Below are positions 40,250 to 64,000 of a stretch of DNA of 64,000 nucleotides, one piece after another (within the stretch, counting starts at the first letter, position 1; the number at the start of each line of letters is the position of its first letter). Source of the DNA: Catenaria anguillulae PL171 (lineage: Eukaryota; Blastocladiomycota; Blastocladiomycetes; Blastocladiales; Catenariaceae); NCBI GenBank assembly GCA_002102555.1, contig MCFL01000039.1, positions 167,705 to 231,704 of the forward strand, read 5' to 3'. Below the pieces are notes generated by a model. That model was not told the DNA's origin and did no database searches. It saw nothing but the letters and a program-made list of their open reading frames with translations. The position numbers and the translations under genes are program-made.

Positions 40250-41874
40250 ATGTCCAAAACCGCCCGCCGCCTCTTCAAGCGCGGCAACGCCGGCTCCGGC
40301 TACAACTCGTCTGCCCCGGCCTCGGATGCCGAATTCGAATCTGACAGCGATGCCGGGTCGGTCCTCTCCATCGACGACTATGTGTACCCGTTCCCGGACA
40401 CGCCCCCCGGCGGCAACTCGGACAATGAAGGCGACGACGACTCGTCCTCGGGCAGCGGCGGCGCCCATCGCGACTTGGGCCACGATCTTCGTGCCGCCCT
40501 CGACGGCCTCTTGGAAAAGCGGGCATCCACGCGCGAGGACCATTTGGCCAAAATCATTCGCTTGCTCGGCAATCATTACATGGCAGCAGAATTGGATAGC
40601 TTGGTCGACACTGCATTGGATGCCCTTGTCAGGTGTGCGAAAAAGGAAAAGAGTCAAACGGAAAACATTGCGGCTGCGAAAGGTTTTTTTGTCTTTCTTC
40701 CTGTTTCTCGCCGCTTGAAAAATCTTGTCACTCACTCACTCGAAAACCGATTTACCTTTACTTTTCAGCACTCGGCATCTACTTTGTCACCATTGGGCCC
40801 GGCCACGAATCCCGATACACAGAAGTTGTCGATACCTTGCTTCCACTCGTCACCAAACTCACTGCGGGCCGGCCCGAACCCGTCCGCTGTGCCTTGTCCG
40901 ACCTCGTGACGCTCGCTTGCTTCACCACGGGCTCGGCAGACCACACGTCCACTCTGCTTACCACATTTGCCGACCTGGCCGCCTCGACCTTCCGCAAACT
41001 CGTCCAAGCCAACGAGGCATCGGCAGGCAACGCTGCGCTCAAGGCCGCTCAGGCCGCCGTGTCTGCCACGTCGGGCGAGGCGAAAGTCACAATCAAGAGC
41101 CAGCAAGGGATCGAAAAGCTGCCGGGAGGGAAATTGCTGCCTGTGCTACTGGCTGATTTGGGCGTCTTGTGCACGGTTGCCCGGCCAGGCGCAGTGAGAA
41201 GCGTAGCGGGCGCGCTGGGCGAAATGCTGCTCAAGGTCCTTGGGTGCACGTGCGTGAGTGCAGAAACAAAGATCTTGGCAGCCGAAAACGTGGCCATGTT
41301 GGTCGAAGTGGGTGCGCTCGATCGGCCCGACGACGACAACGACCATGGCAACGCCACGTCCAACACACCTGCATCACCATCGTCCATCAAAGCGGACGAG
41401 ACTGTGACGGCGGATCCAGCCACCATTGTGACACGTGCCATCCGCATGCTGACGGACCTGACCTCGTCCTCATCCACGTCGTCCGACCTCGCCACTTCAG
41501 TCAAGTCCACCAACCAGCGCGACCGCAAATCACAACGTGCCGCGTTTCGCGACGTGCTGGCCTACCTCGAGTCGGAAACCCCACCGCATCTCAAGCTCAA
41601 GTTTAGAAAGGAGCAAGTCGTGCTCAACACTTGGGCACAATTGCGCCAGCTCTATATGTTCCGCGCCGCGCTTGGACAATCGGTCCATGTTCATTTCTTG
41701 CTCAACCCCTTGTTGCGCGACGTGTTTGATTTCCACTTTACTGAAGATGCCGGACTGAGCAAGGCCGAGCGCAAGGCAATGTATAACCCGAGCAGCGAGT
41801 ACGCGAGGCAGCGCACGCAGATGTTGGCCAAGCAGAGGCGAGTAAGGGCCAGCAAGATTGGCCAGTTTGATTGA
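40250..41874 (+). CDS. Interferon-related developmental regulator (IFRD) family protein
   Basis: IFRD proteins (IFRD1/2 in animals) are transcriptional and translational co-regulators, and IFRD2 binds inactive ribosomes. Exon 1 starts MSKTARRLFKRGNAGSGYNS, has a Ser/Asp acidic region, then LRAALDGLLEKRASTREDHL and DALDALVRCAKKEKSQTENI. An 86-nt intron (40683-40768, donor GTTTTT, acceptor TTTTCAG) joins AAAK to ALGIYFVTIGPG, the start of the armadillo-like IFRD domain. The IFRD C-terminal domain is at the end: QRDRKSQRAAFRDVLAYLES, EQVVLNTWAQLRQLYMFRAA and NPLLRDVFDF. No frameshift is needed. About 512 residues, comparable to animal IFRD proteins. Confidence 0.9.
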
Positions 41875-42008
41875 TTGTCTTCTTTTTTGATGGCAATCGA
41901 GTTTTGTTACATTTCTCTCCGATTTCCACATTGTATTTATTCCTTGCCCTTTGTTTGTCTTGTCTGACCGTATACATACTAAATATATAGCCCATGCCAT
42001 TCGTTGAT

Positions 42009-42488
42009 CTACTCTTTCAACGTGCCCAACCTCGCCAACTTGACCTTTTGCACCCACATGCGGTCCAAATCCCAAACCTTGCCCGTGACGTACGGGTCCG
42101 AACGCATCAAGTCCAAAACGGCCTGCTTGCTGGGCATATCGAGCAAAAACATGCTGCCAAACATCTTGTCGCCATCGTCTGTGAGCTGAGCGCCGCCCGC
42201 AAGCAGCAAGCCCTGCGATTGCAAGTTGGCCGCGTGTTTGAGATGGGCAGGCCGGGCGGCCAAACGGCGGGCAGGCGCGTCTGCGTCGGTAAAGTCTGGG
42301 ATCGTGATGAGGTAGTGGATAGCTGTGGGACAAGGTTCGGGCCACAGGTGAGTATATGAGGGTTGAGGATGGCCGGGCCGACAGATTGGGCGGGGACGTA
42401 CGCGGGCAGAGCGAGCGGCGGCCACGGGTCGCATGGCCGTGGTGGCGGCGGCTGGGCGGATCAGTGAGGTGGCGCGAGACAAGATCAT
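42009..42488 (-). CDS. YCII-related domain protein, probably mitochondrial
   Basis: Small protein with a ferredoxin-like YCII fold. The N-terminus MILSRATSLIRPAAATTAMR, rich in Arg, Ala, Ser and Thr without acids, looks like a mitochondrial presequence. After a roughly 79-nt intron (42323-42401, donor GTACGT, acceptor CCCACAG) the domain reads IHYLITIPDFTDADAPARRL, ARPAHLKHAAN, LLLAGGAQLTDDG, GSMFLLDMPSKQAVLDLMRS and DPYVTGKVWD. The His in RPAHLKH and the late Asp are typical of YCII proteins. The intron phase is off by one base, so an indel in exon 1 or an alternative donor is needed. Function is not established for the family in fungi. It ends 134 nt from the convergent IFRD gene. Confidence 0.8.
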   Translation of the reverse strand: MILSRATSLIRPAAATTAMRPVAAARSARVRPRPICRPGHPQPSYTHLWPEPCPTAIHYLITIPDFTDADAPARRLAARPAHLKHAANLQSQGLLLAGGAQLTDDGDKMFGSMFLLDMPSKQAVLDLMRSDPYVTGKVWDLDRMWVQKVKLARLGTLKE

Positions 42489-43012
42489 GGTGGTGGGCTG
42501 AGCTGGGCCGGGCAGGTTTGAATGGATGGTGCAACGGTGAATGATGGCGTGCGTAGGACAAAAGAATGCATTCGGGCATGTAAATGTCATATGTACCAGA
42601 GAGAGGGAGAGGGTTTACGGATTGGCTGCGTGCCGGAGTCGCGCCCCCAACAAAGCCGAAGTCGCAAGACCGGCGGTTGCGAGAAGTCGCGTTCATGACG
42701 ACAAGCATCATATATTATGGATTGTGAAGTCCAATGCCCATGCAAGGCGTGAAAGAAGTCGGCTTAACGAGACAGAGATACCTATTGAATGTACCAGTAT
42801 TCGCTTTCACCTTTGCCCGTGCTGATGAAAGAATCACATCATCGTGACCGAACTATTGGAGACGATGAGGTGGCGGACCTGCTGGCAATAAATGTCATGG
42901 TCCGCGAATGAACGTCGAGAACGTGGGACACAACGGGAAAAGTGTTGCAACCGAAAACGTCATAATCAAGTCTGTATTCCTTCAACGTGTATGTGTCTCC
43001 CCCAGCCCTGAT
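42489..43012. other. Intergenic region upstream of the YCII-like gene
   Basis: 524 nt; presumed promoter of the YCII-like gene and 3' region of the NDP kinase. No gene seen. Confidence 0.45.
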
Positions 43013-43778
43013 TTAGACAACGCCAGGATGTGCCACTCGAAAGGTGGCCAAATACGACTCGACGGCCGGATCCTTCGGGAAAAAAAAGTCGAGTTCTCTC
43101 ACGGCAGTCTCAATGGAATCTGCGATATCCCGTCACACTCGCTAAAGTCAGCTATCCACCCTCCACAAACCCACTGGTGCATCATTGGCGAGACGTACCC
43201 GACCCATGGAACGAGTTCCGAGTATCCGTCAACCCAAACTGACCCCTTAAACTCGTTGGCGCCACGACCTGCGCCTTCACTGGATGCGTGGGCCCAATCA
43301 TTTCCCTCCATCTTGTAATGGCGTCCCCGCCATCGTGTTGATCTGTGGTGTGCAAGATCATGGCCAAAAACGGCCCGCTCGTCATGTAGCTTGTGAGCCG
43401 ATCGTAAAAGAACTTGCCCTTGTGTTCGGCGTAAAAGCGGCCCGCGTCACGTGGAGTCCAGTGGACGCGGCGCGAGCGGACGAGTTCGAGGCCAGCAGCA
43501 GGCAGCTGCGCGTGAACGTCAGCGACAGTGATCGGGTCGGCGTAGATGTCGGGTTTGAGGAGGGCAAGGGTGAGGGAAAATGCCGGGCGGTCGAGTTGAG
43601 GTGCGGCGGTTGTGGTTGAAGAATGGAGCCGAGCAGGTGGTGCAGCGTGGGCCACAAATATTGGCCGTGGTTGTTTGGAAAGGAAGGAGGGGAGGGGACG
43701 ATGGGCAACAGGGACCCGGAGACGAGGAGTCATCATGGATGGTAATGTGGACGGAGGTAGGAATGCAGAGGGTTTCAT
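43013..43778 (-). CDS. NME6: Nucleoside diphosphate kinase, NME6 type
   Basis: NME6-type family member. The N-terminal extension (MKPSAFLPPSTLPSMMTPRL..) is Arg/Ser/Ala-rich and presequence-like, in keeping with the mitochondrial location of NME6. The kinase domain begins FSLTLALLKPDIYADPITV (NME6: LTLALIKPDAVAHPL). It continues GRFYAEHKGKFFYDRLTSYM, SGPFLAMIL and MIGPTHPVKAQVVAPTSLRG, with the catalytic motif TDTRNSFHGS. A 79-nt intron (43120-43198, donor GTACGT) joins HGS to DSIETAVRELDFFFPKD, the family's conserved end. The catalytic His is present, so activity is possible, though animal NME6 is weak on its own. About 228 residues. It starts 200 nt from the divergent I78-type gene. Confidence 0.9.
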
Positions 43779-43978
43779 GGCGTGCAGTGGCAGTGTACGT
43801 GTTGGGTCATGAAATATGAATTCGAATATTCCGGCATGAACATCCAGACCCCCCGATTTGCTTTGCTCCTGATTGCTTGCAGTCGCAACGCAACGTGCTC
43901 GCGTCGTCGGTGTCTCGCTTCACGCGCCGTCAGCACCCCGACAAGCAATGCTCTTTGGCTCTCTGAACCTTAAGCTTC
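43779..43978. promoter_or_regulatory. Compact divergent promoter
   Basis: Only 200 nt separates the start codons of the NME6-type and I78-type genes, so both promoters must lie here. No TATA-like motif is obvious. Confidence 0.5.
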
Positions 43979-44401
43979 ATGAATCGTATTTCGTCGACGC
44001 TGTTCCGCCTTCGCAACTTCTCCCTCTCTTTCACACACCCCGGTATCCGCACCATGAGCAACCCCAACGACGCCAACCACTGGACCTCTACCCTCATTGG
44101 CAAGACCCTCGTCGACGGCCCCGTTGCCGAAGCCCAGGTCTGTCTCAAACTGCTTGTCGCGGCTCGCCGACATTGTCTTCATGGACCTGTCTTTTCTCTT
44201 GCGCCGCACGCATGCTCACAACCAACATCATGTACTTTTTCGTTTCACACACAGGCCGCAACCCACGTGTCAAAGTCGACCTTGCCCAACCCGCACCGTA
44301 TCATCAAGCCAGGTTACATGGTCACCATGGATTTCAACGAGGCGCGCTTGAATGTGCACACCGACGACAGCAACAAGGTTACCAACGTCCGCTATGGTTA
44401 A
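43979..44401 (+). CDS. Peptidase inhibitor I78-like small protein
   Basis: Two-exon gene. Exon 1 reads MNRISSTLFRLRNFSLSFTH.., with an internal ATG at 44054 opening MSNPNDANHWTSTLIGKTLV. A 117-nt intron (44138-44254, multiple of three) joins VAEAQ to AATHVSKSTLPNPHRI. The core PGYMVTMDFNEARLNVHTDD followed by KVTNVRYG matches the I78 consensus (PG..vT.D....RlNv..d....i), a family of small serine-protease inhibitor-like proteins. The 25-residue extension from the first ATG is basic and hydroxylated without acids, so the longer form may be targeted to mitochondria and the shorter one cytosolic; this is inference. The usual family cysteine at the end is absent (VRYG instead of a CG ending). Confidence 0.75.
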   Translation: MNRISSTLFRLRNFSLSFTHPGIRTMSNPNDANHWTSTLIGKTLVDGPVAEAQVCLKLLVAARRHCLHGPVFSLAPHACSQPTSCTFSFHTQAATHVSKSTLPNPHRIIKPGYMVTMDFNEARLNVHTDDSNKVTNVRYG

Positions 44402-44853
44402 GAACCGATTCGCGTCGACAACGCCACCCAACACGTCGTTGTCGTTGGCCAACAGTCGAGGACGGCGGAGGCGCAGTAGTGTTTGAAGTTGTACATATTT
44501 CTGTATCATATAAGACACTGCGCGAGGAGCCTGTCTTTCTTCACTTCGCTCGTCTTGGACGTAAGGGCAATGCTTGACGCGCTCTGCCCGTCCGCTTGCG
44601 CCTGTTTCGCCTGAACCCGGTCGGGGCCGACCTTGGGACTGTCGTTCTTCTCGATGCTCAAGGGAGCTCAAGGGTAGAAGTGCGAGAAAAAAAAGCTCGA
44701 GTGCCATGGTAAAGCCGGGAGTGACTTGAGGCACGCATGGCTGCGCTCCACGTCTCCGAGGCTTGATGACCATGGTGACAAAAACAGCATCAGCGATAAA
44801 GAGAAGCATTACACCCCCGATGATTTGACCTCAAGCATCATCCTCACTACCAT
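44402..44853. other. Intergenic region before DUF4139 copy A
   Basis: About 450 nt. The last roughly 25 nt before the ATG (CCTCAAG..CCTCACTACC) resembles the leader of copy B, so the duplication includes a little 5' flank. No gene seen. Confidence 0.45.
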
Positions 44854-47200
44854 GAACTCGACCCACACCACCGACACCCGGGCTGGCCCGCTGATCTTGC
44901 CTGCAACCGACCACCCTGTCACCCATGTCACCGTGTACCGCGACCGTGCCGAAGTGGCCCGCAAACTCGCCGCCGTCTCCATCAAGCGCACATCCCCAAC
45001 CACCATCCAGCTCCGTGGCCTGCCGCGCTCGCTTGACACAAACTCGGTGCGCGTTGAGCCGCTCACCAACAGTGCCCGTGTCCTGATTGCCGACGTGCAA
45101 GTCGCAGACCAGCTGGAACGCGTGGAAAAGAAGCCAGAGGAGGAGGCGGCGGCTGAAGACGATGCATGGCGAAAAAGAAGACCAAGGTGACTGCCGCTGA
45201 TGTGGCGGCCAAGCGTACCGAGCTCGAATCTGCGCGGATCAAGCTCAAATATCTCGTCACTACTCGCTGTATGTTCAAGACCAGCTTGGCTCATCAAGCA
45301 GTACGCCGATGCACGTGCGTCGACCGTCAAGCTGGACAGTGGCGCAGACTTGGTCAAGGACTTTGTGGCCGGGTTTGTGCCGAGCCACGAACACGTCGGC
45401 AAAGACCTGACGCTGCGCAAGGTGCAGCTGGATGAGCAAGTCAAGGATGCGGAAGCAAACGTGGCCGACCTGGACGATTGGGTGAGGTCGCACGAGTACT
45501 TGGTGCAGAGGAAGGATGATGAGGCAGAGTATGAAATGGTCATGTCTGTCTTCGTTACACTCGAGGTGCCAGAGAAAGCCAGTTCCGAGGGTGACGCAGA
45601 GTCGATTGAGACAGATTTGCTTGTCAGCTACGGTACGCTCTGTTGCTCAATCGCTGCTTTGCTAATGGTTGTACTAACTGTTAGCTCGTGAACTCGAATT
45701 AGTTGTCCCCAACGCCCGCTGGTCGCCACACTATGACCTGCGCGTCTACTCGCGCGACAATCTCGCTCACTTGACCTACAACGCCAACCTGCGTCAATGG
45801 ACGGGCGAGGACTGGACCAAGGCGCAACTCGTGCTGTCGACCGCATCGATCGCGTCTATTGGCCACGACCTGCCCAAATTCACGTCCCGCTGGGAACTCC
45901 GCGAAAAAGCACCACCGCTTCTGATGCGTAAGATGTCTCCCATGAAGCGGTCTGGAGCACCGCCACCGCCGCCGCCACCTGCACCGGGTGGTACTGTCGC
46001 GATGATGGCCGTTTGCGAGGAAGGGTTGGCCCCATTGGCTGCGAGTGCCATGGTGGCACTTCCACCGCCGGCACCCAAGCCCGTGATCAGCGCACCAAAG
46101 GCCGAGGTCCTGGCCGAGGATACCGGGTTGACGGCGGCTGCATTCAAGATTGCCATGCCGACCACGGTCCCAAGCGACAATGTTGATCATCGTGTCGCAA
46201 TTGCAGTGCTGCAGCTGCCTGTGTCGTTTGCACGCGTGGCTGTGCCCAGGCTGGCGCCGGGCAAGGTGTTTTTGGAGGGCACCGTGACCAACGAGTCGGA
46301 TTACGTGCTTGTTCCAGGAGAGGCAAGGGTTGGCATCGATGGGTCGTTTGTGGGCAAGTCGGCTCTCGACGTATGTCCATCTTCTCGTTCGTCATTGGTG
46401 TATGCGAACGCCAAGCTTACCTACCCAGTTTACTCACTTTTCCTTGGTAGTTGGTCATGCCAAAAGCCACATTCAAGCTCAACCTCGGGCTCGACCCGAC
46501 CATTGAAATCACGCTCAAACCGACCCAGAAACAAACCGAGCTTGGCAAGCCCAAACCCACGGGTGCACTGGCCCTGTTTGCCGGCAGCGGCAACGTTGCC
46601 TCGCCCTCGACCGTCCCTGCCGTTGCGGCCGTCATGACACCCGGGTGCAAAGTCGTCATGCACACGAACCGCATTGTGATTGCCAACAAGGCCGGCGGAA
46701 ATGACGGTGGCAACGCGCAGTCGGCAGCGGCACCTGCGCGGATTCGCGTGTCGGATCAGATTCCAACGGCACAGCATGCCGACATTCACATTGTGCTGGT
46801 TGATCCCGATTTGAGCAAAGGGTCAGGGGTTGCAGTGCATGTCAAGGCGAGCCGGAATGCGGCCGCGGATGAGGCGGCAACGGGTGCGGGCACGAGCGTG
46901 GCTGCTCAGGCGGCTGCGAGCGGTGGTAGCATGGGATCGCTCAAGCGTGCCAAGTCCTCGTCGGCCGCCAAGCTGCCTGCTGCTGTTGCCGCTGCATCAA
47001 TCACTGGCGGTGGACGATTGCCCGTGTTTTACAAGGACGTGGGCGAGCTCGAGTGGGACGTGGATGTGGATGCGGGCAAGTCGACCGAGATTGTGTGCAA
47101 GTATGCTCTCGTGTACCCGAAAGATTTCAAGGTGGAAGGGTTGACAAGCAAGTGAGAGTGTTGCCGTCGTTGCCAGCGGGGGTTTTGCGTTTGTTATCAG
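44830..47200 (+). repeat. Inverted repeat arm A (DUF4139 gene duplication)
   Basis: Near-identical at base level, in opposite orientation, to 54822-57195. Homology begins in the short 5' leader and fades about 50 nt after the stop codon. Introns and one 131-nt coding block differ. Confidence 0.9.
44854..47155 (+). CDS. DUF4139/DUF4140 (mucoidy inhibitor A-like) protein, copy A
   Basis: The N-terminal DUF4140 part has HPVTHVTVYRDRAEVARKLA, then LRGLPRSLDTNSVRVEPL. A coiled region follows (KTKVTAADVAAKRTELESAR, LRKVQLDEQVKDAEANVADL). The DUF4139 domain starts RWSPHYDLRVYSRDNLAHLT and YNANLRQWTGEDWTKAQLVL, with EGTVTNESDYVLVPGEARV later and YKDVGELEWDVDVDAGKSTE at the end. Introns: 45633-45684 (52 nt) and 46371-46450 (80 nt). 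Compared with copy B, one base is missing near 45166 (EDDAWRKRRPR) and another near 45290 (GGCTCATCAAG for GGCTTCATCAAG). The family occurs in bacteria and fungi with unknown biochemical role. Residues encoded by 45904-46034 (Pro/Met-rich, ending ..PPPPPPPAPGG..) differ completely from copy B. Confidence 0.85.
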
Positions 47201-47465
47201 CTTCAAAGTTGTGCACATGTATTCAGTTCTTGAGTTGTGTCCTTGACGTACATAACTCGTGCGTTGATTCTCAAGCTCAGCCGGGCTGAAACTGGTCTGT
47301 TCGTACAACTATCACCAACGCAACCCTCAGATTTACACAATGTACCGCAATATGTGTATTGTTCGGTGGAAAGAATGAACTATCCGGCCATATGAAAAGT
47401 AGTGAGAGCAAAGCTCAAACATTGGCGTTTGCAGCATTGGCGTGCGTTCTTCATCCGTGAGTGAT

Positions 47466-49041
47466 TCATCCCTTTTGAGTTGTGTGGATGTATGTGAATT
47501 GGCTGCGTTCAGGGTGCAGCATACAGTGAAAACAAAAGATAATGTCCGTCTTATTGCTCAGCATCACCTTTGGCCTGAGCTTTGGCGGAATCGCACGCAA
47601 AATCTCCAACAGCTCCGTCAAGTGGCGCTCATCCAATGCCGAGGCCTTCTCGCAAGTGACCTTGGTAAAGAGTTTCTTCACCATCTGCTCCAGGTCGTTC
47701 TTGGCCACGCCGCGGTGGGAACGGTACGTGCGGACAATGTGCTCGGCCAACGGACCGTTGACCTTGACGATTTCGTAAACGGACGCAAATCGAGCACACA
47801 CACGAAAGTAATTGCGAATCTACATGTGTGTCATTGTGAAGCGGACAGTGAGCGTGTGCGCGTGGGGCAAAAGAATGCTGGTTCGAGCAAAAGAGAACCG
47901 TACTTGGTTAATGGACACGCTTGCGATTGCACTGTCAAACACTGTCATCAAGGTCTCCCACTTGAATGTACAGTTCTTGTGGCAATGCGCCGTGATAGCT
48001 GACCAACCACGCTCGATGGCTGTGCATATAAGTAAATACATCCAGTCAGTGGCGGGGTAAAGGGTCGCTCAATTTCAAGGAAGATGTGTTAAATGAAATT
48101 GGGCGTACGATTCAGCTCTGGGTGAAACTTGGGAAGGACAAGGACAAGGTGGCCATATTTTCGAATCAGTTCGGCGAGTCGGCACTCTTAAGCTTGAAAG
48201 TCAGGCTGAGAATCAAGCATGCGGCGACAGCAGCAATCAATTCGGGAGTATCGCTCGGGATCTTTTTCAAACGCCCCTCGACATTGGGCACAAACTCCAA
48301 TCAGGTTGTTCTTGACAAGCCGATACACGTTGCGGTTGCGCTCTTCCAACACACGCTGCATCCCTGTGGGAATGACCATGTCAGCACGAGTAGATGACAA
48401 TGAAAGCTCAGTGAATGAAGTCGAAACGAACCTTTGGGCACCCTTTTCCCATTCTCAACCACCCACATCGGCTGAATCACCTTCACACCTGCCTTGTTCA
48501 CAAACCAAACATCTCGCAATTTTTTTTTTCCCCACCAGTACCCTTGTTCATGCTGGTACATAGGGTACGTGTCTCACCAGCGCCATAGAGGGAGTTGAGT
48601 GCAACAGCGGTGTTTTCGGGTACAACCGAGTCGTACTTGTACGACTTGCGCTCGGGGTCCATGAGCTGGGTATCGACATCGTAGAATGACAGTCTGTGGA
48701 ATCGGAGGAATAAGAATGAACATGGGAATGGAATGGAAGCAACGTAAGCATGAAACAAGTTTACCTTTTCCTCTTTGGTCACCGGCATACGTGCCGGAGG
48801 AGTTGTGTGGCGATCCACGAGGTGAACCATGATGGTCCATGAGCTTTCCGTGAAACGAGTTGGCCGCCAAATCAACCAGAAATGCATTTGTCTGCGCAGT
48901 CCGATTCCCGACATCTATTATAATTTTGGGCTCAGCCTTTGCGATTTCCGAGTTGAAATGGGTCACCTCCTCGGGGCAGGGAGTACTGACTTGAGAGACG
49001 ATCGATTCGACGGCTGGCGCATCAAAAGCACCGGGTAGCAC
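47466..49041 (-). CDS. DDE-superfamily transposase with spliceosomal introns
   Basis: Exons join in frame over GT..AG introns. KYDSVVPENTAVALNSLYGA is followed by DVWFVNKAGVKVIQPMWVVE, then VPKG+MQRVLEERNRNVYRLV. Next come CAQCRGAFEKDPERYSRIDC and CCRRMLDSQPDF, then LPKFHPELN+PIERGWSAITA, SINQ+IRNYFRVCARFAS and VRTYRSHRGV. VPKGMxxVLEER, CxxC..DCC..R.L..QPDF, LPKFHxELNPIE and ..YKSHR are hallmarks of a widespread fungal DDE endonuclease family related to Tc1/mariner. The Asp in KYDS and Glu in NPIE would be catalytic. One stop (near 48187, after QPDFQA) is likely an indel. Upstream of 48693 exon structure is unclear. No terminal inverted repeats found. It may be a mobile copy or a domesticated gene. 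Confidence 0.72.
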
Positions 49042-49966
49042 GACATCAAGTTGAAGTCTTGAGCGAGTTACTGGGCGTCATGCAAGCCGGCATAGCCCTG
49101 TTGACCATCCTGGTACGAGTTGGCAACAGGCGATGTGTAATCGTACCCGCCAGCGCTGGTTGATCGGAGACGCCCATTGGGTCCAGCAGGTTGGGCGATG
49201 CAAGGGGCAAGTCAACGTTGGACCCAGCGTCTGAGTGGCTGGCGGCGGAGCTGGAGGGCAAGCGGGAGGCAGATGGGGCAGCAGTGGAGTGGGTGAGCGG
49301 CACAGCGGCGGCCGAGTGGACGAGGGGCGGAGTGGCCTCTGGGCGGGTTAGAGGAACCTGGGCATCGTAACGGTTGCGGTCTGCATAATGGTTTGCCTTG
49401 AATTGCTCATGGTGGCGATTGGCGGAATATGTGTCGGATTGCGATTGGGTTGGCGAGTCATTGCCCATAGCCCTGAGTTGATCGCGGTGTTGTTCGGCTT
49501 AGATGCGACCGTGGTGGATTCCTCGATCATCACGCTATGTACAAGACTGGGCCATTTGTTGATCACTTCACGTGTGTGACGATGATGCCAAGGTTTTGGC
49601 TGCGGCAACAGTTGCCTTGCTGGTTGAAGTTGGCATCCTGCAGTCGGAATACAAGGACGAAGTGTTGCACTTGGTCACCCTATTACAGCCTTGGCAGGAT
49701 AGAGAAGAAATAAACGGCTTACATTTGTGAGAGTATTGCAAACGACAAGTAAACATGAGATGTCAAAGCATCGGGGACGACAAAAAGTGGTGAATCCGAA
49801 ACCAATGCCATAATGCAAAAGGGAATGTGCAGCGGCGACGGAATGCAATCAAAAGCACTAAAAAAAAAATCAATCTGAAAAGGACGCAAAATTGAGACGA
49901 CGTCGAGAGACATTATGGCTGAACGACACAGGTGCCACGGACAAGCACATAGCCTTTGCGCGCTGC
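49042..49966. other. Unassigned region between the transposase and VAP genes
   Basis: About 925 nt. A minus-strand frame (49046-49468) rich in Ser, Ala, Pro and Thr might be an N-terminal exon of the transposase gene, but I could not join it by a clean splice. The plus strand has a hydrophobic frame (49388-49579) that I take as chance. Nothing else recognised. Confidence 0.3.
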
Positions 49967-51449
49967 TCACCCGCTACGCATGAGCAGTCCAATCACCATT
50001 CCCACAACCCCCATGATGGCCACCACCAACCACCCTTGCATCCCGGACAACATTCCTCCTTGAGCCCCCAAATACTGGCCGTCCGGCCCATACCTTCCGC
50101 TTCTGCCATGATAAAACGATCCGGGATTACTCCCGTTGAAGTATCCCGACTCGCCGATCTCATCCTCCACAAACCCGTCCAAGGGCGGCATTGGTGGAAC
50201 GAGGCCCTGAGTATCCAACCGGCGCAGCGCTGCGCGATTGGTGGTGATTTCATCCCACGCACGCGCCAGCTGCGACTCGAGGCGAGCGATGCGAATGTGC
50301 GGCGCAATATCTGAGGGGCCCATGGGCGTCATGGTTGCCATCGAGTCCATGGAAAGCGCGGCACCGGAATCCGAGTGGTGCATGCCATGCGGCCGGTGAT
50401 GATGGTGCATGCCCTGGTGATGTGAGTTGCCGTACATGCCTGCGCCGGCGTTGCGCATGGGTGTTGGAATGCCCGCGTGTAATCCGTTGCCGTGGGGGTT
50501 GTGCGAGTAGCCGTATGGCTGTGGAGGTGGGTAGATGCCATTTGAATGCAATGGCGGCGGGGATGGGGTTGTCGAAAGGAGATTGCGCACGGAACTGGAG
50601 CGGCCGCCAGGAGACAGCAGGCTGCGTAGGCCCTTGGACGCGCGCGACATGGACGCAGAGACGTTTTGTGGTGACGTGTGCGGAATCGGGCTAGTGGCGT
50701 GGCTCATGGAGTTGTTGGTATACATGATGGGTTCTGACGGTGAGCGTTGTGGCTGGCGTGGCAGGGACATGCCCCAATCGGAGCGAGCTGGGGATGCGTA
50801 TGGAACTGAGTAGCGTGAGGCAATGAGCATGGTGGGAAGGATCTGAAGACAATCAGAGTCGGACGGTCGCGCGCACCATTGTTGTCCATGGTCCCATACT
50901 GGTTGGGTGGAGAGCTGAATGGGAAGCGAGCACGGAGCGGTGCTCGTGAATCCGCGTTGGATCCAGAACGGGCCACTATGCAAGAAAGCAGTTGGGCGAG
51001 ATTAGTCAATCATTGCGCCGATGATAAATGAGTTCAAGCGTACCAGTGCCAACAGATCCATTCCGACCTCATGTGGACGTAGCAATACCGACTCGATGAG
51101 AAACTTGTCCTTGCCGCGCATGGCGCGATCCATGTCGTGCTGCAGGCATGCCGTCACAGAGAGAATGGTGGTCGAGCCTGGGTGGACCAGTCCGGCATTG
51201 GGACGAACGACATAGTGTTTGGGCGCGGTTGTCTTGACCTTGTAGGCGGCGACCGTGTCCTTTGATGGGTTGAATAACCGGATAGTCACGGTGTCCGTGA
51301 CGTCTGCCAAGAGCAACGCGTCGAATTACTTGGCGTGGTCAGTATTGTTGTCCGTGGCACTCGAGATGATCAGGGCAACATGGCGAACACGGCGGGGATA
51401 GCATACGGGAAAAGGATAGCTCCGAGTAGGGCGAGAGCTCGAGGACCAT
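49967..51449 (-). CDS. VAP/Scs2-type MSP-domain protein with C-terminal membrane anchor
   Basis: VAP proteins tether the ER to other membranes by binding FFAT motifs. Exon 1 (51407-51449) gives MVLELSPYSELSFS. A 103-nt intron (51304-51406) leads to VTDTVTIRLFNPSKDTVAAY and the MSP signature KTTAPKHYVVRPNAG, then HPGSTTILSV and KDKFLIES. A second intron (50976-51043) follows MDLLAL. The long linker is rich in Ser, Pro, Gly and His (HHRPHGMHH). Near the end are a coiled segment (IRIARLESQLARAWDEI) and a tail anchor GWLVVAIMGVVGMVIGLLM followed by RSG. The frame just after intron 2 is uncertain and may hide an indel. The linker is much longer than in yeast Scs2 (244 residues total). Confidence 0.82.
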
Positions 51450-52523
51450 GATCGAACCGGCGCTGTATCAAGGAATCTGAAATCGGGGAGGGGCATGGAC
51501 AAGCGGAGAATGAGATCGCCACGAAATGTGATCTCAATGTGCCGAGTCGAGGGTTGTACTGATGGCCAGTTGTTCGGCGAGGACTCTCCAAGAACGACTT
51601 GGTGGTGCCTAAAGTGCAATGCACAGAGTAGCTATTGCATTTGTAAGTGTCTTGCATTCACGGATTGTGGCCGGTCGCGGCGTACGCGTGCGGCCGCTGC
51701 AGGGTTGCTCTCTTATGTTCAATGTGACACTGGCTCGTGGACCAGCCGTGGACTTGGCTTCGAAATCCGGATTCTCGACATGTCCATCGGCATGACCTTG
51801 CAGCTGCCCCCAATAGGACACGGTGGATTCGTGAGTCTTGGGGGCCAGGAACCGTTTGCCAAATTGACGGGTCCTGAAACTAGCCAAGTCCTGTCTAGAC
51901 ACATTGCTGGGTACACAGCTGAGCATGTAGAGTCTGCGCCGGTGTCCTTTGTTCATGTCGCCGCTTCCCTGTCAAACCTCACACACAAAAGCATCTTTGC
52001 AAAGACACTCGTTCCACCACGGTCCCACAATGCTCCTTACGAATGCCGACTGATGGAGCGTACGAGTCGCCAATTCAGATCGTCATCTGCTTCGGCCTTC
52101 GAGTGGCTCGAGCGAACACGAGTTGAACGTGAATGCTCCACTCCACCATTTCTGAACGGCCCCCCTCGAAGCCCTAGAATAGCCGCCGCGCACGGTTGCA
52201 GCCGGTGCCATGTAAATAGTCAGCCAAAGCAATAGCCCGAGACGTTGATCAAGCTCCAATTCCCAAATCCAATTGCTGCCTTGATTCGCTCCACCCCGCC
52301 GACTGCCAACCGCACCTGCACAGAGCAATTATCCACCCTTGTCCTCACCACGCCAAACACCATCCGCATGGGACAAAGCAGGTCAAACGGCCCACGGCCA
52401 AAAGCCTCTTGAGTCTGCCGTGCCTCATTCTACCGCTAGTGTGACATGTTTGACCAGTCCGCGCATGTCAAGGCAGTCAGCTGACCGTCGGTTTTCGGTT
52501 CGGTAGTCTGAAGAAGGCAGCGA
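51450..52523. other. Region upstream of VAP gene with an unassigned plus-strand frame
   Basis: About 1.07 kb. It includes the VAP promoter. A plus-strand frame at 51495-52235 would encode 246 residues with a Cys cluster (CLKCNAQSSYCICKC), but I recognise no domain and it could be chance in GC-rich DNA. The left end of the piggyBac-like element may also be here; no TTAA-flanked terminal repeat was found. Confidence 0.3.
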
Positions 52524-54429
52524 ATGCCGACAGCAGCCCAGAAGGACAAACTCCTCGCAAGCGTGCCGGGTAGACGATGCAACCAATTCAGCAACGAGCT
52601 CGCCAACACAGCACACCCCACGCGCAAGCGCGCGTCGCAAGCGCAGCCGAAACCAAACAAGTCGACGTCGGGCGACGAGGAGGTCGATCCACCAGAAAAG
52701 TCGCAAATCGGCGATGACCAAGTAGGTGCTGAGTGTGCCGAGTCAAGTGCGACGAGGGGGAAAATGATGGTGAGGAGGATTCAGACGATGAGGAGAATCA
52801 CTGGGACCATCAGTAGTCCGTTGGTATGTGTGTCACATCTTTCTCATCACTTCATGGCAACCCAGACTGAGCATTGACCGTTTCCAGTGGAAGCATTCCA
52901 AGGCCTTTGGGACAAGGAGAAAGCCTCCTGGCTTCGCTGGGTACCGGTATCCTCGTCGTCTCCGACACCTGGCTCGCCACCGCCTACCTCCCCACCGCCC
53001 GGCTCGCCGCCGCCTACGTCGTCAGAAAATCGCGACCCAAAATCCACCACAGGCGATGCGTCGCCAAAACCTCAACCACATCCGCATGTGTCCAATCCGT
53101 TCCCGCACACCGACCCCCCCCCCCCCCCCCTGGGCCGACGATTGATTTCGGTGACGACAAAGATCTGGCCGGCTGGCCGCCAATCCGGATCTTTCTCATG
53201 CTGCTTCACAACGCCAACGTGGGTTCGCACAGCTTCTTGGGCGACATGGTATTTGGGACGAACGGCTACGCCCAGTTGCATGATGCGCCGGATTGGAAGC
53301 CGTTAGATGAAGCAGAAGCTTGTCGGTTCATTGCGCTCATCCTGGCTATGGGTCTTGTGCAAAAGCCAGACTTGTCGGCATATTGGCTTGAAGACACCGT
53401 CGACTCGACACCCAACATTGCAAAGATCATGCCAAGGGATCGCTTTTTCCAAATTTTGCGCTGGTTGCATTTCCGGAAACCCAGGTTGCCGGGGTAAGAT
53501 GACAGAGGAGCAGAGGCGCATGCGTAAGATTGGGGTCATGATGGACCACATCAACCGAGCTTTTGCCGCAGCGTACAACACCGGTGAGCATGTTTCCGCA
53601 GACGAGATCATGGTCAAGTTCACCGGCCGCCTCGCATTTGATCAGTATTGCCGGCAAAGCCAACAAAGTGGGGCATCAAGGTGTGGGCGCTTGCGGATCC
53701 AACAACTGGTTACCTGTACTACACCAAGGTGTGCACGGGCAACGACGCCACAACCGACGAATTGGGCACCGGACTGGGTGGCGGAGCGATCTTGTCCATG
53801 ATGCAGAGTGCCACCTCCTCGGCAAAGCACACGGTGGTCTGACATTTCTTTACGTCGCCATGTCTAATTTACCGGCTCCTCGACAAGCGTACGCACATAT
53901 TCGGTACAGCGCGCACGAACCGTGTCGGGTTTCCATTGAAGATTGTCGAGTTGCCCAAGAAGGAGAAGCATGCGCGCGGCGACCATCGGGCCGCAGAGGT
54001 GGATGTGCCACTTTCTGGCGGCAGCTTGGGCCGCATCTCAGCCTTTGGGTGGTTCGACAACCAGGCCGTGTGCCTTCTTTCAAGCAAGCATGCCGCCGGC
54101 GATTTGGATTCCGTCAAGCGCTGGGACACCAAGGAAGGTGGACGGGTCCCAATTCCTGCGCCAACAGCCGTCATGGAGTACAACCGCAAGATGGGTGGCG
54201 TGGATTTGGCTGACCAACTGCGGACGTATGCATGGAGGCATTTTTGATCAGTCAAGTGGTGGAAGAGAATGTGTCATTTTTGCATCAAGCAGATGTGTAC
54301 AAATGCGTATGCGTAGTCATTTACCACGAGCTCGCCAAGTGCCTCGGCCTCAAGCAGAACGTGAGTAATGGTGACTTCATTCGTAGTCTCGTCGAGGATC
54401 TTTCAGATGCTCGGCGGAGACGCATGTAA
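52524..54429 (+). CDS. piggyBac-like transposase (DDE_Tnp_1_7), frame-disrupted
   Basis: Transposase that cuts and pastes DNA at TTAA sites. An N-terminal Ser/Lys-rich part is joined by a likely short intron (GTATGT near 52821 to TTTCCAG near 52888) to VEAFQGLWDKEKASWLRWVP and a Pro/Ser-rich linker. The catalytic part includes FLMLLHNANVGSHSFL, MPRDRFFQILRWLHF, MMDHINRAFAAAYNTG, ADEIMVKFTGRLAFDQY, KPTKWGIKVWALADPTTGYL, FGTARTNRVGFP, MEYNRKMGGVDLADQLRTY and KWWKRM near the end. Asp of ADEIMV and of GGVDLADQ match catalytic positions; the middle Asp lies where two bases appear lost near 53840. At least five frame changes occur, one at a run of 17 C. It could be an inactive relic or an intact element with sequencing errors. 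Confidence 0.82.
53114..53130 (+). repeat. 17-nt poly-C run inside the transposase frame
   Basis: Seventeen consecutive C encoding a Pro run. Frame changes at this point, consistent with miscounted homopolymer length. Confidence 0.95.
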
Positions 54430-54866
54430 CGATGTCCCATATGTACCAGCTCACAGTGTTCCACTCTGCTCAACTTGAAGTGTGTCGGGTCTGCAAAATA
54501 GGACGAGTATGACCACGAAGATTGCTTGGGATCAACATGGTCGCACGCTGGGGAATAGCAGGCCAGACAATATTGGAGCAAGGCATTTTTGACTGGGTTG
54601 ACAGGATGATGCACTCGGAGGCAACATTTACGAACGTGTTTGACGAGGGTATATGCCGAATAACCTCATTCAAATAACCCTCTCAATGTTGCGGAGGCTG
54701 ATACTGACCTCTCTTTCCCATCACGGTCCGCTCTACATTCTTTTGTGCGGACAGGCGAATACGTCATGCACAGAGTACGTCAAGATCACAACTGAAGAAG
54801 TGAATGCATTGGACACTTGAAGCTGATGACAAACGCAAACCCCCGCTGGCAACGACGGCAACACTC
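54430..54866. other. Region between the piggyBac-like gene and DUF4139 copy B
   Basis: About 440 nt. It contains the end of the transposase element and about 45 nt of 3' flank shared with copy A. No gene seen and no obvious terminal inverted repeat. Confidence 0.4.
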
Positions 54867-57195
54867 TCACTTGCTTGTCAACCCTTCCACCTTGAAATCC
54901 TTCGGGTACACGACAGCATACTTGCACACAATCTCGGTCGACTTGCCCGCATCCACATCCACGTCCCACTCGAGCTCGCCCACGTCCTTGTAAAACACGG
55001 GCAATCGTCCACCGCCAGTGGTTGATGCAGCGGCAACAGCAGCAGGCAGCTTGGCGGCCGACGAGGACTTGGCACGCTTGAGCGATCCCATGCTACCACC
55101 GCTCGCAGCCGCCTGAGCAGCCACGCTCGTGCCCGCACCCGTTGCCGCCTCATCAGCGGCCGCATTCCGGCTCGCCTTGACCTGCACTGCAACCCCTGAC
55201 CCTTTGCTCAAATCGGGATCAACCAGCACAATGTGAATGTCGGCGTGCTGTGCCGTTGGAATCTGATCCGACACGCGAATCCGCGCAGGTGCCGCTGCCG
55301 ACTGCGCGTTGCCACCGTCATTTCCGCCGGCCTTGTTGGCAATCACAATGCGGTTCGTGTGCATGACGACTTGCATCCGGGCGTCATGACGGCCGCAACG
55401 GCAGGGACGGTCGAGGGCGAGGCAACGTTGCCGCTGCCGGCAAACAGGGCCAGTGCACCCGTGGGTTTGGGCTTGCCAAGCTCGGTTTGTTTCTGGGTCG
55501 GTTTGAGCGTGATTTCAATGGTTGGGTCGAGCCCGAGGTTGAGCTTGAATGTGGCTTTTGGCATGACCAACTACCAAGGAAAAATGAGTAACTGGGTAAG
55601 CTTGGGCGTTCGCATACACCAAGACGAACGAGAAGACGGACATACGTCGAGAGCCGACTTGCCCACAAACGACCCATCGATGCCAACCCTTGCCTCTCCT
55701 GGAACAAGCACGTAATCCGACTCGTTGGTCACGGTGCCCTCCAAAAACACCTTGCCCGGCGCCAGCCTGGGCACAGCCACGCGCGCAAACGACACAGGCA
55801 GCTGCAGCACTGCAATCGCGACACGATGATCAACATTGTCGCTCGGGACCGTGGTCGGCATGGCAATCTTGAACGCAGCCGCCGTCAACCCGGTATCCTC
55901 GGCCAGGACCTCGGCCTTTGGTGCGCTGATCACGGGCTTGGGTGCCGGCGGTGGAAGTGCCACCATGGCACTCGCAGCCAACGGAGCTGGCGCCGCTTGT
56001 GGCATTTGCATGGAACTTTCAACTGTGGCCGATGTGGGAATGTACGCCGGCGACGTTGGCATGTAAGCGGACAATCGGGCCGACAGGCGTACCGGCGGTG
56101 GAACCCGCTCGCGAAGTTCCCAGCGGGACGTGAACTTGGGCAGGTCGTGGCCAATGGACGCGATTGATGCGGTTGACAGCACGAGTTGCGCCTTGGTCCA
56201 GTCCTCGCCCGTCCATTGACGCAGGTTGGCGTTGTAGGTCAAGTGAGCGAGATTGTCGCGCGAGTAGACGCGCAGGTCATAGTGAGGCGACCAGCGGGCG
56301 TTGGGGACGACTATTGAAGAAGAAGTACGAGTAGTCAGAATGCGACGTAATTACGAAAAGAGAAGACGGGAAGCAACAAGCGCGCACCGTAGCTGACAAG
56401 CAAATCTGCTTCAATCGACTCTGCGTCACCCTCGAAACTGGCTTTCTCTGGCACCTCGAGCGTAACGAAGACAGACATGACCATCTCATACTCTGCCTCA
56501 TCATCCTTCCTCTGCACCAAGTACTCGTGCGACCTCACCCAATCGTCGAGCTCGGCCACGTTTGCTTCCGCATCCTTGACTTGCTCATCCAGCTGCACCT
56601 TGCGCAGCGTCAAGTCCTTGCCGACATGTTCGTGGCTCGGCACAAACCCGGCCACAAAGTCCTTGACCAAGTCTGCGCCACTGTCCAGCTTGACGGTCGA
56701 CGCACGTGCATCGGCGTACTGCTTGATGAAGCCGAGCTGCTGCTGTACGACAGACCGTGTGGTGACGAGATCTTCGAGCCTGATCCGGGCCGATTCGAGC
56801 TCGGTACGCTTGGCCGCCACATCAGCGGCAGTCACCTTGGTCTTCTTTTTCGCCTTTGTATCGTCTTCAGCCGCCGCCTCCTCCTCTGGCTTCTTTTCCA
56901 CGCGTTCCAGCTGGTCCACGACTTGCACGTCGGCAATCAGAACACGGGCACTGTTGGTGAGCGGCTCAACGCGCACCGAGTTTGTGTCGAGCGAGCGCGG
57001 CAGGCCACGGAGCTGGATGGTGGTTGGCATGTGCGCTTGATGGAGACGGCGGCGAGTTTGCGGGCCACTTCGGCACGGTCGCGGTACACGGTGACATGGG
57101 TGACAGGGTGGTCGGTTGCAGGCAAGATCAGCGGGCCAGCCCGGGTGTCAGTGGTGTGGGTCGAGGTCATTGTAGTGAGGGCGTTGCGTGAAGTT
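54822..57195 (-). repeat. Inverted repeat arm B (DUF4139 gene duplication)
   Basis: Mirror of 44830-47200. Coding exons match almost base for base; introns and a 128-nt coding block (55982-56109) do not. Confidence 0.9.
54867..57170 (-). CDS. DUF4139/DUF4140 (mucoidy inhibitor A-like) protein, copy B
   Basis: Same architecture as copy A: DUF4140 start MTSTHTTDTRAGPLILPA, coiled region (KTKVTAADVAAKRTELESAR, VVQQQLGFIKQYADARAST), then the DUF4139 domain. One C is missing near 57025 relative to copy A (KRTCQPP against KRTSPTT). Copy B keeps the frame where copy A is broken, including the stretch EDDTKAKKKTKV. The first intron (about 56312-56390, ending CAATAG) differs in sequence and splices to VVPNARWSPHYD, so six residues present in copy A (ARELEL) are missing. 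The variable block reads ..PPPVRLSARLSAYMPTSP.. instead of the Pro-run of copy A. The two copies together allow most indels to be recognised as errors. Confidence 0.85.
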
Positions 57196-57562
57196 GAGGA
57201 CTCGCAAAAAGGATGTATTCATTGCCTGGTAAATAAATGGGACGTGGGTACTGGCTTCGTCGCGGCACCGCTGTCCACCAACCTTCACTTCAGACCACGA
57301 CTTTGGTCTCCTTTCCGTTGCCAGTGGTGGCAGCAAGTCATTTCAATAATGAGTCAAAATCATGTATCGTACAGACATACATATACAATAACAGAGGAGG
57401 CGGTCATCGACAACGGTACGGTATCAACTAGTGGGAAGTATTGACATTGTGCTTTGCCAACGACCAACGAGGAAAAGAGCAACAAATAGACTGCAGAGGA
57501 AATCAATACAGAAACTAACGAGAGCGACGCCAATGGGCAAAAGGCACGACGCCCGTCACAAT
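57171..57562. other. Intergenic region between DUF4139 copy B and GrpE genes
   Basis: About 390 nt; promoter of copy B and 3' end of the GrpE gene. No gene seen. Confidence 0.45.
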
Positions 57563-58366
57563 TTAGGACGACGTATCCTGGACCACACCCACCTGCACGG
57601 GGCGCAACACACGCCCATGCAGCTTGAACCCGGCCTTGGCCACCTGCAACAAAGTACCAGGTTCACGTCCTGGCACGGGTGCTTGGTACATGGCCTGATG
57701 AATGGCCGGATCAAACTTGTCGCCCTCGACCGCATCAATGCGCTGAATGCCGTGGCGGTGGAAGGTTTGGTGCAGCTCATTGTTGGTCAAAGTGAGGCCC
57801 TCGTGCAAGTCACGCAGATCCTTGTTGTTGGCAAGGGCCTCGGGCTTGACGGAATCGACGGCAATGGCGAGCACATCGGCGATCGACAGCAAGTCCTTGG
57901 CAAACTTTTGGACGCCGTATTGGTGGGCTTGGTCGACTTCACGCTTGGTGCGAGCGCGCTGGTTCTCGGCGTCGGCGAGCGAGCGTTGGTAGGCCGACTG
58001 GATGGGTGGTGTGCGATTGCGATTGAGAGCGGGACAGTCAGTGAGAAGGGAAGCACAAGCACGGAGGCCATGGGTTGAGGAGTTATCATACAATCACTTC
58101 CTTGAGCTTGGATTCCTTTTCTTGCAGCTGCTTGGTGAGCTTTTCAACAGAGGCAGTCAACTCGGCCACCTTGGCGTCGGGTGCGGCGACCTCGCCATCG
58201 GCCGTCTTGTCACCGGCAGCAGCATCCGACTTTTCTGCTTCCGACTTTGCAGTATCGGAGAACCGGGCCGCCGATGTTGACAGTGACCGGGAGGCGTGGA
58301 CACGGCCAAGGGGCCAGCGACCGACTTTGCGGCGGCAGTGCGGAGGGCGGAGAGGAACATGGACAT
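57563..58366 (-). CDS. MGE1: Mitochondrial GrpE nucleotide exchange factor
   Basis: Exchanges ADP for ATP on mitochondrial Hsp70 during protein import and folding. The presequence MSMFLSALRTAAAKSVAGP continues, after a one-base shift near 58305, into SRSLSTSAARFSD, a plausible processing site. A coiled coil follows (AELTASVEKLTKQLQEKESK). A 94-nt intron (57998-58091) joins LKEVI to SAYQRSLADAENQRARTKRE. The GrpE core includes GVQKFAKDLLSIADVLAIAV, NELHQTFHRHGIQRIDAVEG, DKFDPAIHQAMYQAPVPG and the end AKAGFKLHGRVLRPVQVGVV. About 240 residues, normal for Mge1. Confidence 0.93.
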
Positions 58367-58718
58367 GATAAGTGACTGGCGTTTGCTGCTACGATTGCGT
58401 CGCGAATGTATTTATCGTGCATGCATGGAATGCTGTGTGGAGACGATTCGGATTGGATGGGTGAGGTCAGTATAAACCGTAACATCGATGGAGCCAACTC
58501 ACACAACAGAAGCGCCGATCTGCTCGTGGTGCGAACACTGGCAGGCAACACAGCCTGAGGATTGAGGAACGGGGAAAAGAGCAGAACAACAGCGATGGGG
58601 ATCGCGAGACACACCACTGAAAGCACAAGCGAGACATTCCGAGCTGCGCAACGTTCGTCCACCTTCCGCCGCTTCTGATCAAGCAAAGCCCATTCACATT
58701 GAACTAGAGCACATAACA

Positions 58719-59579
58719 ATGCATGGCAACAAGCAACATGATCCTCCTTCGCCGAACCCCGCATCCAATCCAACCCTTGTCCACTTGATCCAGACCAGAT
58801 CCGATGCAGATCAGCTGATTCGACTCGCCCGCAACGCAGCCTTCCTGGGAGTCGACTTGGAGCACCATGCCGCCATTCCCATTGCCTCAACGCCGCCATC
58901 GCTCGAGCTCCTGGCCCATCGACGCCTCGCTCGGCCATCGTCCATCTCACCGTCTCAGTTTTCGCGCGCCATTGCTAAAGCCCAGCGGCCGTCGTTCGCA
59001 CTTCCTCGACAGATTGTCCAACGGACCGCCTGGCCCAGCTTGCAAATTGCTCTTCCACCATCCAACACCGACACTCCAGAAGAAAGGATGTGGCGGGCCC
59101 AGCAGATCATCAGCAGCCGGCAGAGTGTACCCATGTATTCAGCATACCCTTGTCCACGCTTTCTGACGAGCCTTGGCGACTGGAGTTGATTCGTACCTTG
59201 TTTACCGGCAGCGAGCCGTCACCGTTGCTTCATTTTTCACGGCGCCGGCAACGATTTGACCGTCCTGAGGTCTCGATTCAAAGTTGCTCCACCTCCAAGC
59301 AAGGTCATCGACATTCAGCTGATGTACAATGAGTGGCACGGCCCAAACGTCGGCAAAGGGAACCAATTCGGAGGAGGCTGGCGGCGCTCATGAGGCACCG
59401 GCTGTCAACCCGAGTCTGAACGACATTTTGGCATTCCTTGACCTCCCTACCAATCCATTCAAAGACAAGAGTCGGATACCCCGGCTGATCTGGTCGCATA
59501 CGCTGCATACGACGTGGACCAACTCATACCCGCATTCCATCGACTCCAGCGGCTCATGTTAGATTCGTCAATGTCCTGA
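58719..59579 (+). CDS. EXD1-like 3'-5' exonuclease domain protein (DEDD family)
   Basis: RNase D-type fold, reconstructed over several one-base shifts. The start is MHGNKQHDPPSPNP, then LVHLIQTRSDADQLIRLARN and FLGVDLEHH, the exo I motif (D-x-E). The next stretch CTHVFSIPLSTLSDEPWRLE and LIRTLFTG is the typical strand-helix region. Exo II is FHGAGNDLTVLRSRFKV (Asp in GNDL), followed by KVIDIQLMYNEW. Later VNPSLNDILAFLDLPTNPFK precedes the exo III motif DLVAYAAYDVDQLIPAF (Tyr-X3-Asp). All DEDDy positions appear present. EXD1-like proteins act in small-RNA or RNA processing in animals; the fungal role is unknown. Three to four frame changes make the exact length uncertain, expected near 285 residues. 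Confidence 0.68.
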
Positions 59580-59725
59580 GCGACGGGCAGCCGCCAGCTA
59601 TATATTTTACTGTCTGCGATGTGACATGGATGTGAGATTTCGGTGTCGAGCCAGTGGTGGGCGCAAGTGACATTGTGGTAGAGATTGTGTGAATGTACAA
59701 CACAGTTCGCCGAGAAGTGGCCACC

Positions 59726-61026
59726 ATGCAATTACTCATCGCAATCATCCTTTCGCTTCTCCTCGCCGTCCACGGGTTGCGTAAAAAGTCGCTGTCGACA
59801 TCGGGTGCCGCGGCGGGGCTCCTTGTCGGCCTCATCACGTTCAACCACCCACACCCAGTGTTTGGCGTCATCCTGGTGGCATTTTACCTGTCGGGCTCGC
59901 GGGTAACCAAGGTATTATTACATGAATCATCGGATGTACGTACAGCTGTCTGTTTCCAGGGTTGACGGGATCGTGTTGCTTGCCATGAGTAGATTGGCCG
60001 TGAGACAAAGTTGAGGATAGAGGAGGATTACCGCGAAGGTGCGGTCAAGCTTGAAATGCATCGATTTTTTTGATATCAACACGACTTGAAGGGTTATTGA
60101 TCCATTCGGCGCATGTCCATAGCGGGTCAGCGAAATGTTTGGCAAGTCGTTTGCAACGGCGGTGTCGGCACCCTTCTCGCCCTGACTCATCTCAGCTTGG
60201 TCGTTTCCGGCAACGCCTGCCACTTGGATAAGCCGCTGTCTCTTGCCTACTTGGCGTATGTGGCCACCGCCCAAGCATCCGTTGATTCATCTTGTGGGTG
60301 TGGCTAACTTGAAATTCTTGCCTCGGATTCAACAGACACTACGCATGCTGTGCCGGCGACACATTTGCCAGCGAAATCGGAACCGCATTTGCCTCCAAAT
60401 CCTCGCTGCCCATTCTCATCCGTCCGGTCGACGGGTATGCCTGTTCACTTGCTTTGGTCGCTGCCATCGCATGCTTACAATGCCAGCTATCCCGTCTGTA
60501 CATATAGGTCCCACACGGCACCAACGGTGGCATCACTCCCATTGGTACGCTCGCGAGCTTTGCTGGCGGCAGTCTGATGGGTGTCGTGGCATTCTTTGTT
60601 GCGCGCTTTGCTCCAGGCCGTCTGCTTGAATGCGGGGACGAACTCGTTGTGTCGTGGTTTGTCAGGCAACCGCTCTTGATGCTCTTGGTACTCGGTGGAG
60701 CATTTGGATTGGGTGGGTCCATGGTTCGTTCCAATATCATTTTTCAGATGGCTGCTTGACCATGCCGACAATGATACTCATGTACATTCCTTCCCCGTAC
60801 ACACCGCATTCTTGGTAGATTGATTCCTTCTTGGCGCAACATTGCAGGCGACCTACCATGACGTCAAGTCTGGCCGCATTGTAAGGCGACGTCGTCTGGT
60901 GGTGCTTCAAAATCGGACGTGAAGCTCGTCTCTGGCGTGCCGCTGTTTAACAACGATGTGGTGAATTTGCTGGCGAGTGGGATCACGGCAGCCATTGGGT
61001 ATGCTGTTGTGAGCGCTCATGTGTAG
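59726..61026 (+). CDS. TMEM19: TMEM19 family (DUF92) integral membrane protein
   Basis: Multi-pass membrane protein of unknown function. The ATG at 59726 has a strong Kozak context (gccaccATG) and opens MQLLIAIILSLLLAVHGLRK, then KSLSTSGAAAGLLVGLITF and FYLSGSRVTK. The intron 59922-59992 joins to IGRETKLRIEEDYREGA, then GQRNVWQVVCNGGVGTLLAL, HYACCAGDTFASEIGTAF, GTNGGITPIGTLASFAGGS, FVRQPLLMLLVLGGAFGLGG and SLLGATLQATYHDVKSGRI. The end is GVPLFNNDVVNLLASGITAA then YAVVSAHV. The CAGDT..SEIG, TNGGITP.G and D.LLGATLQ motifs are diagnostic. About four introns and at least one indel (near 60890, after SGRIV) are needed. Confidence 0.88.
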
Positions 61027-62910: not shown

Positions 62911-63962
<1,052 letters not shown>

Positions 63963-64000
63963 GTTGGCGGTTTTTCGAGCTTACGTAATAAAGCTGTGCG

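Follow-up and report, generated by a model that had tools for sequence, protein, structure and literature searches.

How can two copies of one gene be nearly identical in some blocks and hardly alignable in others, sometimes within the same exon? This question is raised by an inverted gene pair of Catenaria anguillulae PL171, a nematode-eating fungus of the phylum Blastocladiomycota, which is a little-studied fungal group. The pair lies in the final 64 kb (167705-231704) of a 231,704-base contig (C323), at its right end; this whole 64-kb stretch is designated here as the window, and positions are counted from its first base. The assembly amounts to 41.07 Mb in 457 contigs. The two genes, copy A and copy B, face each other with their 5' ends outward and a spacer of about 7.5 kb between them, and both are predicted to encode proteins of the MuiA/DUF4139 family. 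Judged by comparison of the sequences, the copies probably stem from an older duplication, in inverted orientation, of a single MuiA-family gene and were recently homogenised in patches by ectopic gene conversion.

The presence of the gene on opposite strands, reported in a preliminary description of this DNA, is real in the assembly. Start and stop codons were checked in both copies, and BLAST aligned them in two blocks, 44842-45904 against 57180-56109 with 92.8% identity and 46035-47251 against 55981-54775 with 97.2% identity, while all 8 inverted pairs obtained in a repeat search of the window connected the A arm with the B arm. The earlier limits of copy B proved to be right, and the ATG of copy A was placed at 44852 instead of 44854. 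The homology spans from 10-24 bases upstream of the ATG to about 95 bases downstream of the stop codon; beyond these limits none was detected, either between the flanks of A and B, which the same description had noted as diverged, or across the 7.5-kb spacer, and the left flank (40000-44850) matched itself alone in the assembly search.

Along the alignment the difference between A and B rises and falls in blocks. The near-identical blocks are exon 1, the start of exon 2, and then the tract made up of the end of exon 2, intron 2, exon 3, and the start of the 3' untranslated region; intron 1 and the exon-2 linker separate them. With the linker and alignment columns 404-545 left out, the synonymous divergence (dS) is 0.056 and the nonsynonymous divergence (dN) 0.0058, with differences at 17 of 359 fourfold degenerate sites. 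By segment, dS reaches 0.117 in exon 1 (or 0.075 when columns 404-545 are set aside) and 0.109 where exon 2 begins, and falls to 0.046 over the remainder of exon 2 and to 0.034 over exon 3. Intron 1 gave 43 matches, 27 mismatches, and 8 gap columns (61% identity; z = 2.9 over shuffles), which is weak evidence for homology, and the linker is not aligned at all. The 54-codon stretch containing this linker shows dN of 0.65 and dS of 1.27, values which are if anything low, as the stretch takes in about 40 aligned bases on the left and its alignment is unreliable. In exon 1 a cluster of 16 mismatches occupies alignment columns 481-540; on copy A a cluster of differences amid near-identical surroundings was seen at 45231-45291.

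Intron 2 is different, with 72 matches, 2 mismatches, and 7 gap columns (97% identity; z = 15.8). Accordingly, the earlier statement that the introns had diverged is correct for intron 1 and wrong for intron 2, and the statement that exons match almost base for base, third codon positions included, is valid outside the linker and columns 404-545 and fails in the linker and in columns 481-540 of exon 1. Gene conversion, already proposed in the preliminary description, is the best reading. In the alike blocks the fourfold sites show much greater similarity than intron 1 does (17/359 versus 27/70; Fisher p = 4e-13); intron 2 (2/74) does not differ from fourfold sites (Fisher p = 0.75), so the expected excess of silent-site similarity over introns was found for the first intron and not for the second. 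The pair is thus a mosaic of homogenised and old blocks, with no flank similarity detected.

The suggested contribution of a spliced copy, where a complementary DNA donor homogenised the exons only, would agree with the diverged intron 1 beside alike exons. It is contradicted for the 3' half of the gene because intron 2 was homogenised and lies inside the most alike tract; moreover, the exonic linker was not homogenised, and both introns occupy the same positions in both copies, neither of which lost one. This explanation is therefore given very little credence. Purifying selection alone could account for the low dN, but it would not be expected to keep fourfold sites and intron 2 alike too, and it appears just as implausible. 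A silent difference of about 5% and an unaligned stretch in the same exon mean that a single age is insufficient. Such a mosaic of two ages within one gene argues against the spliced donor for the 3' half and, in line with the preliminary description, against a simple recent duplication.

Further evidence comes from two other contigs, C314 and C356, which both match the window at 57250-63990 end to end or nearly so with 98% identity. They enter the gene from the right end of the window and break off at window position 54967. These contig ends lie inside the gene at the same base (L010:7168 for C314 and L009:7179 for C356). Considering them as extra gene copies was rejected on the basis of this match, and they are inferred to be alternative-haplotype contigs carrying an allele of copy B, designated here as version C, although version C could be a chimaeric contig end. 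It matches copy B through most of exon 1 save indels and a few error-like clusters, and departs from it from intron 1 onward. In intron 1, version C is nearer to A (86%; 9 of 63 sites differ) than to B (78%; 14 of 63 differ, plus 18 gap columns), the A-C difference being distinct from that of fourfold sites (p = 0.008). In the linker it is B-like. With a single difference between B and C over 165 linker sites, fast change alone does not explain the linker, although outside it the B-C dS is also the lower one, 0.024 against 0.056 for A-B. At several sites of exon 3 copies A and B agree against C. A scan of the window and of the loci examined for three consecutive TTAGGG units was negative.

When changes private to A, B, and C were counted over four segments, the numbers were 10/0/0, 0/2/0, 7/0/2, and 3/0/5, respectively (permutation p = 5e-5; order-only test p = 0.008). 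In this test 29 of 54 isolated sites were kept; those dropped were 12 from columns 404-545 and 13 from columns 2074-2115. The choice of segments was made after the sites had been seen, and the result depends on version C being accurate. The segments thus differ in history among the three versions. Silent and non-coding sites are alike within tracts and pass to diverged sequence in the same gene.

The accuracy of the assembly has its own weight here. One-base indels occur in both copies and break their reading frames, the public gene models of A and B each omit segments which the other has, beside one-base length differences, and C314 and C356 share their final 1,435 bases letter for letter, including the gaps, as if from one read, though the two contigs differ elsewhere. 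These facts would suit an artefact in which long-read correction blended similar A and B reads and averaged out the true exon differences, with the long-read origin of the assembly taken as an assumption. Against such blending, C keeps its own exon 3 substitutions relative to A and B at 5 isolated sites and A keeps 10 in exon 1, and these private sites indicate that the versions were not fully blended; each arm, moreover, has its own flank sequence on either side, which makes it unlikely that the arms as such are artefacts. Blending is regarded as rather improbable, though the uneven base quality to which the indels point keeps it in contention.

Under ectopic gene conversion, the proposed course of events would be as follows. 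One MuiA-family gene would have been duplicated in inverted orientation before homogenisation; repair of double-strand breaks between the arms would copy sequence from one arm into the other, with tracts that would begin in similar stretches and halt at heterologies, so that intron 1, the linker, and the flanks would retain the divergence of the old pair. A recent date for the copying is suggested by the alike blocks, whose differences are about as many as those between alternative-haplotype-like contigs of the same assembly, the A-B dS by exon (0.034-0.117) being comparable with the 92-98% all-site identity of such contigs, a value which includes error-like indels. An attempt to date the duplication by the linker was abandoned, as aligning four linkers as protein gave z from -0.6 to 3.2 and the signal was too weak.

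The reverse order is also conceivable, namely, a recent duplication or full-length conversion, followed by replacement of intron 1 and the linker of one copy by those of a diverged third copy or a foreign allele; gene conversion would still be at work, the patches then being the newer part. The two linkers are within 3 bases of each other in length, the genome contains several other DUF4139 genes (two on C212, one on C47, and one on C51), and the likeness of the linker to Blastocladiella emersonii is slightly higher for B (z = 3.2) than for A (z = 0.3), all of which could be cited in favour. On the other hand, the assembly DNA search with copy A found no donor of its linker or intron 1, although a strongly diverged donor would be missed; the matches listed were A, B, C314, C356, and a 55-base conserved stretch on C212 and C47. 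The flanks, moreover, are unrelated up to the gene edges. A late replacement of this kind is considered unlikely.

Several points weigh against patchy conversion of an old pair. The protein searches brought up no near relative that has the pair and could polarise the changes; among the matches listed, drawn from a capped set of about 8,000 candidates, the closest are proteins of Blastocladiella britannica (44% identity to the annotated protein of B) and B. emersonii (39%). Private changes of three sequences give heterogeneity and not direction. Intron 1 differs between B and C too, to the extent given above, and may be fast-changing by itself. Base quality is uneven, with the one-base indels of both copies, and A and B are the one paralogue pair of this genome that the comparison covers.

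Inverted pairs with gene conversion are known from other organisms. The palindromic Hsp70 and Amy pairs of Drosophila are described in the relevant part of a review of ectopic gene conversion (PMC3924832), according to which concerted evolution of the Amy pair is limited to the coding sequence, with independent flanks. Amy-p/Amy-d, as described there (PMC3924832), are like A/B in being inverted linked paralogues with homogenised coding regions and independently evolving surroundings. In the present pair the tract is broken by intron 1 and by a diverged linker within an exon, and one strain was available instead of a population or species series. The Hsp70 genes of Drosophila are not known to have introns. 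The A/B genes carry introns and their spacer holds transposon-like pieces, unlike the Hsp70 palindromes; yet Hsp70Aa/Ab and Hsp70Ba/Bb, as the review presents them, are similar mirror-image pairs with gene conversion (PMC3924832). Mammalian BMP8A/B, DDX19A/B, and TUBG1/2 offer another parallel: according to the account of these pairs (PMC2720389), converted tracts run through both exons and introns while other parts of the gene have diverged, as in A/B. Orthologues from several mammals allowed those pairs to be dated (PMC2720389), whereas A/B is undated with the relatives found.

The pair thus appears to fit a known kind, patchy ectopic gene conversion of inverted paralogues, and to be a fairly ordinary case of it. 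A literature search for both gene tags, for gene conversion in Blastocladiomycota, and for the genome of C. anguillulae found no report on this pair among the records listed, and its value is that of a compact, testable instance in an inverted pair of this phylum. There is some small chance that conversion is ongoing at the time scale of polymorphism and that selection keeps two linkers, that is, two protein variants, while the rest of the protein is homogenised, silent sites included; if true, the pair would be a domain-variant cassette in which heterology shields the variable piece.

A signature of repeat silencing, by repeat-induced point mutation (RIP) or CpG decay, was also considered. 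Within the alike blocks, 15 of the 35 differences between A and B were CpG transitions; these made up 2 of 13 A-B differences in columns 404-545 and 6 of 11 B-C differences, compared with 10 of 99 for the right-flank contigs (p = 7e-5 against the A-B alike blocks). In the allelic-looking pair C212/C47 they accounted for 63 of 226 differences overall and 44 of 152 in long open reading frames (ORFs). Because the A-B excess was not significant against this pair (p = 0.077 overall and 0.157 in long ORFs), the signature was dropped; a mild excess of CpG transitions in A-B may exist.

A protein search with spliced copy B found BCR44DRAFT_1515049 and BCR44DRAFT_1535752, both on a contig of 231,704 bases, the length of C323; their sequences match copy B and copy A, respectively. 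In the ORFs of copy A Pfam recognised DUF4140 (4.2e-11, in the first ORF) and DUF4139 (2.9e-21), and the annotated protein of copy B contains DUF4139 (2.3e-31) and matches TIGR02231 (7e-56); DUF4140 was unmatched in this annotated protein, whose gene model is bent there. Both annotated proteins exceed the curated cut-off of 112.6 bits for the MuiA family (NCBIfam TIGR02231), with 190 and 204.7 bits. The A and B models look as if the predictor placed false introns to keep the frame, and version C, when compared with A and B, has many one-base gaps that resemble read errors left uncorrected; this is a warning that gene models in this assembly are bent by one-base indels.

The genome-wide search for DUF4139 gave 10 matches, located on C323 (A and B), C212 (two genes), C51, C47, C314, and C356. 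The assembly holds redundant haplotype-like contigs (C314, C356, and C212/C47) with about 92-98% identity over kilobases, and gene counts from it are likely inflated. The exon-1 stretch 44908-44962 (55 bases) is 84-90% identical in DNA to the distant DUF4139 paralogues on C212 and C47, whose proteins are only about 31% identical over the part holding it; codon bias or a tiny converted patch may be responsible.

Table 1. Positions of the two gene copies, their compared segments, and the features between them in the window.
Feature	Position	Strand	Basis or remark
Copy A (BCR44DRAFT_1535752), DUF4140 + DUF4139 gene, 3 exons	44852..47155	+	Pfam on ORFs, annotation, start/stop checked
Copy A intron 1, 70 nt, diverged from B	45633..45702	+	GT...AG
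Copy A exon-2 linker, proline-rich, unaligned to B, 124 bases	45905..46028	+	Between two BLAST blocks
Copy A intron 2, 80 nt, near-identical to B	46371..46450	+	GT...AG
Spacer between arms	47252..54774		Assembly search
Dispersed repeat	47507..48558		About 91% identical to stretches on contigs C63 and C1
VAP-like gene, MSP domain + tail ORF	49967..51325	-	PF00635 2.4e-16
piggyBac-type transposase (DDE_Tnp_1_7), broken frame	52871..54247	+	PF13843 in 3/3 ORFs given
Copy B (BCR44DRAFT_1515049), same gene as A	54867..57170	-	BLAST to A, annotation, start/stop checked
Copy B intron 2, 75 nt	55571..55645	-	Alignment to A
Copy B exon-2 linker, 121 bases	55988..56108	-	Between two BLAST blocks
Copy B intron 1, 77 nt	56311..56387	-	Segment compared held one further exon base

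The surroundings of the pair include the NDK and I78-type inhibitor genes to the left of A and a GrpE gene (PF01025, 5.1e-42) to the right of B. An inversion of the spacer, suggested earlier as a possibility, is unsupported by C314 and C356, which stop short of the spacer: the linker that they reach from the right flank is B-like, and in neither is that flank connected to a linker of the A type. When compared with the rest of the assembly, the spacer had matches limited to the dispersed repeat, the transposase region, and the arm edge. From the two transposases and a VAP gene described earlier in the spacer, the VAP-like gene and the piggyBac-type transposase were recovered, and the second transposase is a dispersed repeat. 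All 4 window ORFs tested in this repeat were without a Pfam match; one stop-free piece of its C1 copy gave a sub-threshold match to DDE_3 (E = 0.17), and the repeat is perhaps a remnant of a DDE-type element. The tail ORF of the VAP-like gene (49967-51001) had no Pfam match and, by eye, ends in a transmembrane-like stretch. Relatives of the piggyBac-type transposase with about 70% identity were found on contigs C116, C406, and C453.

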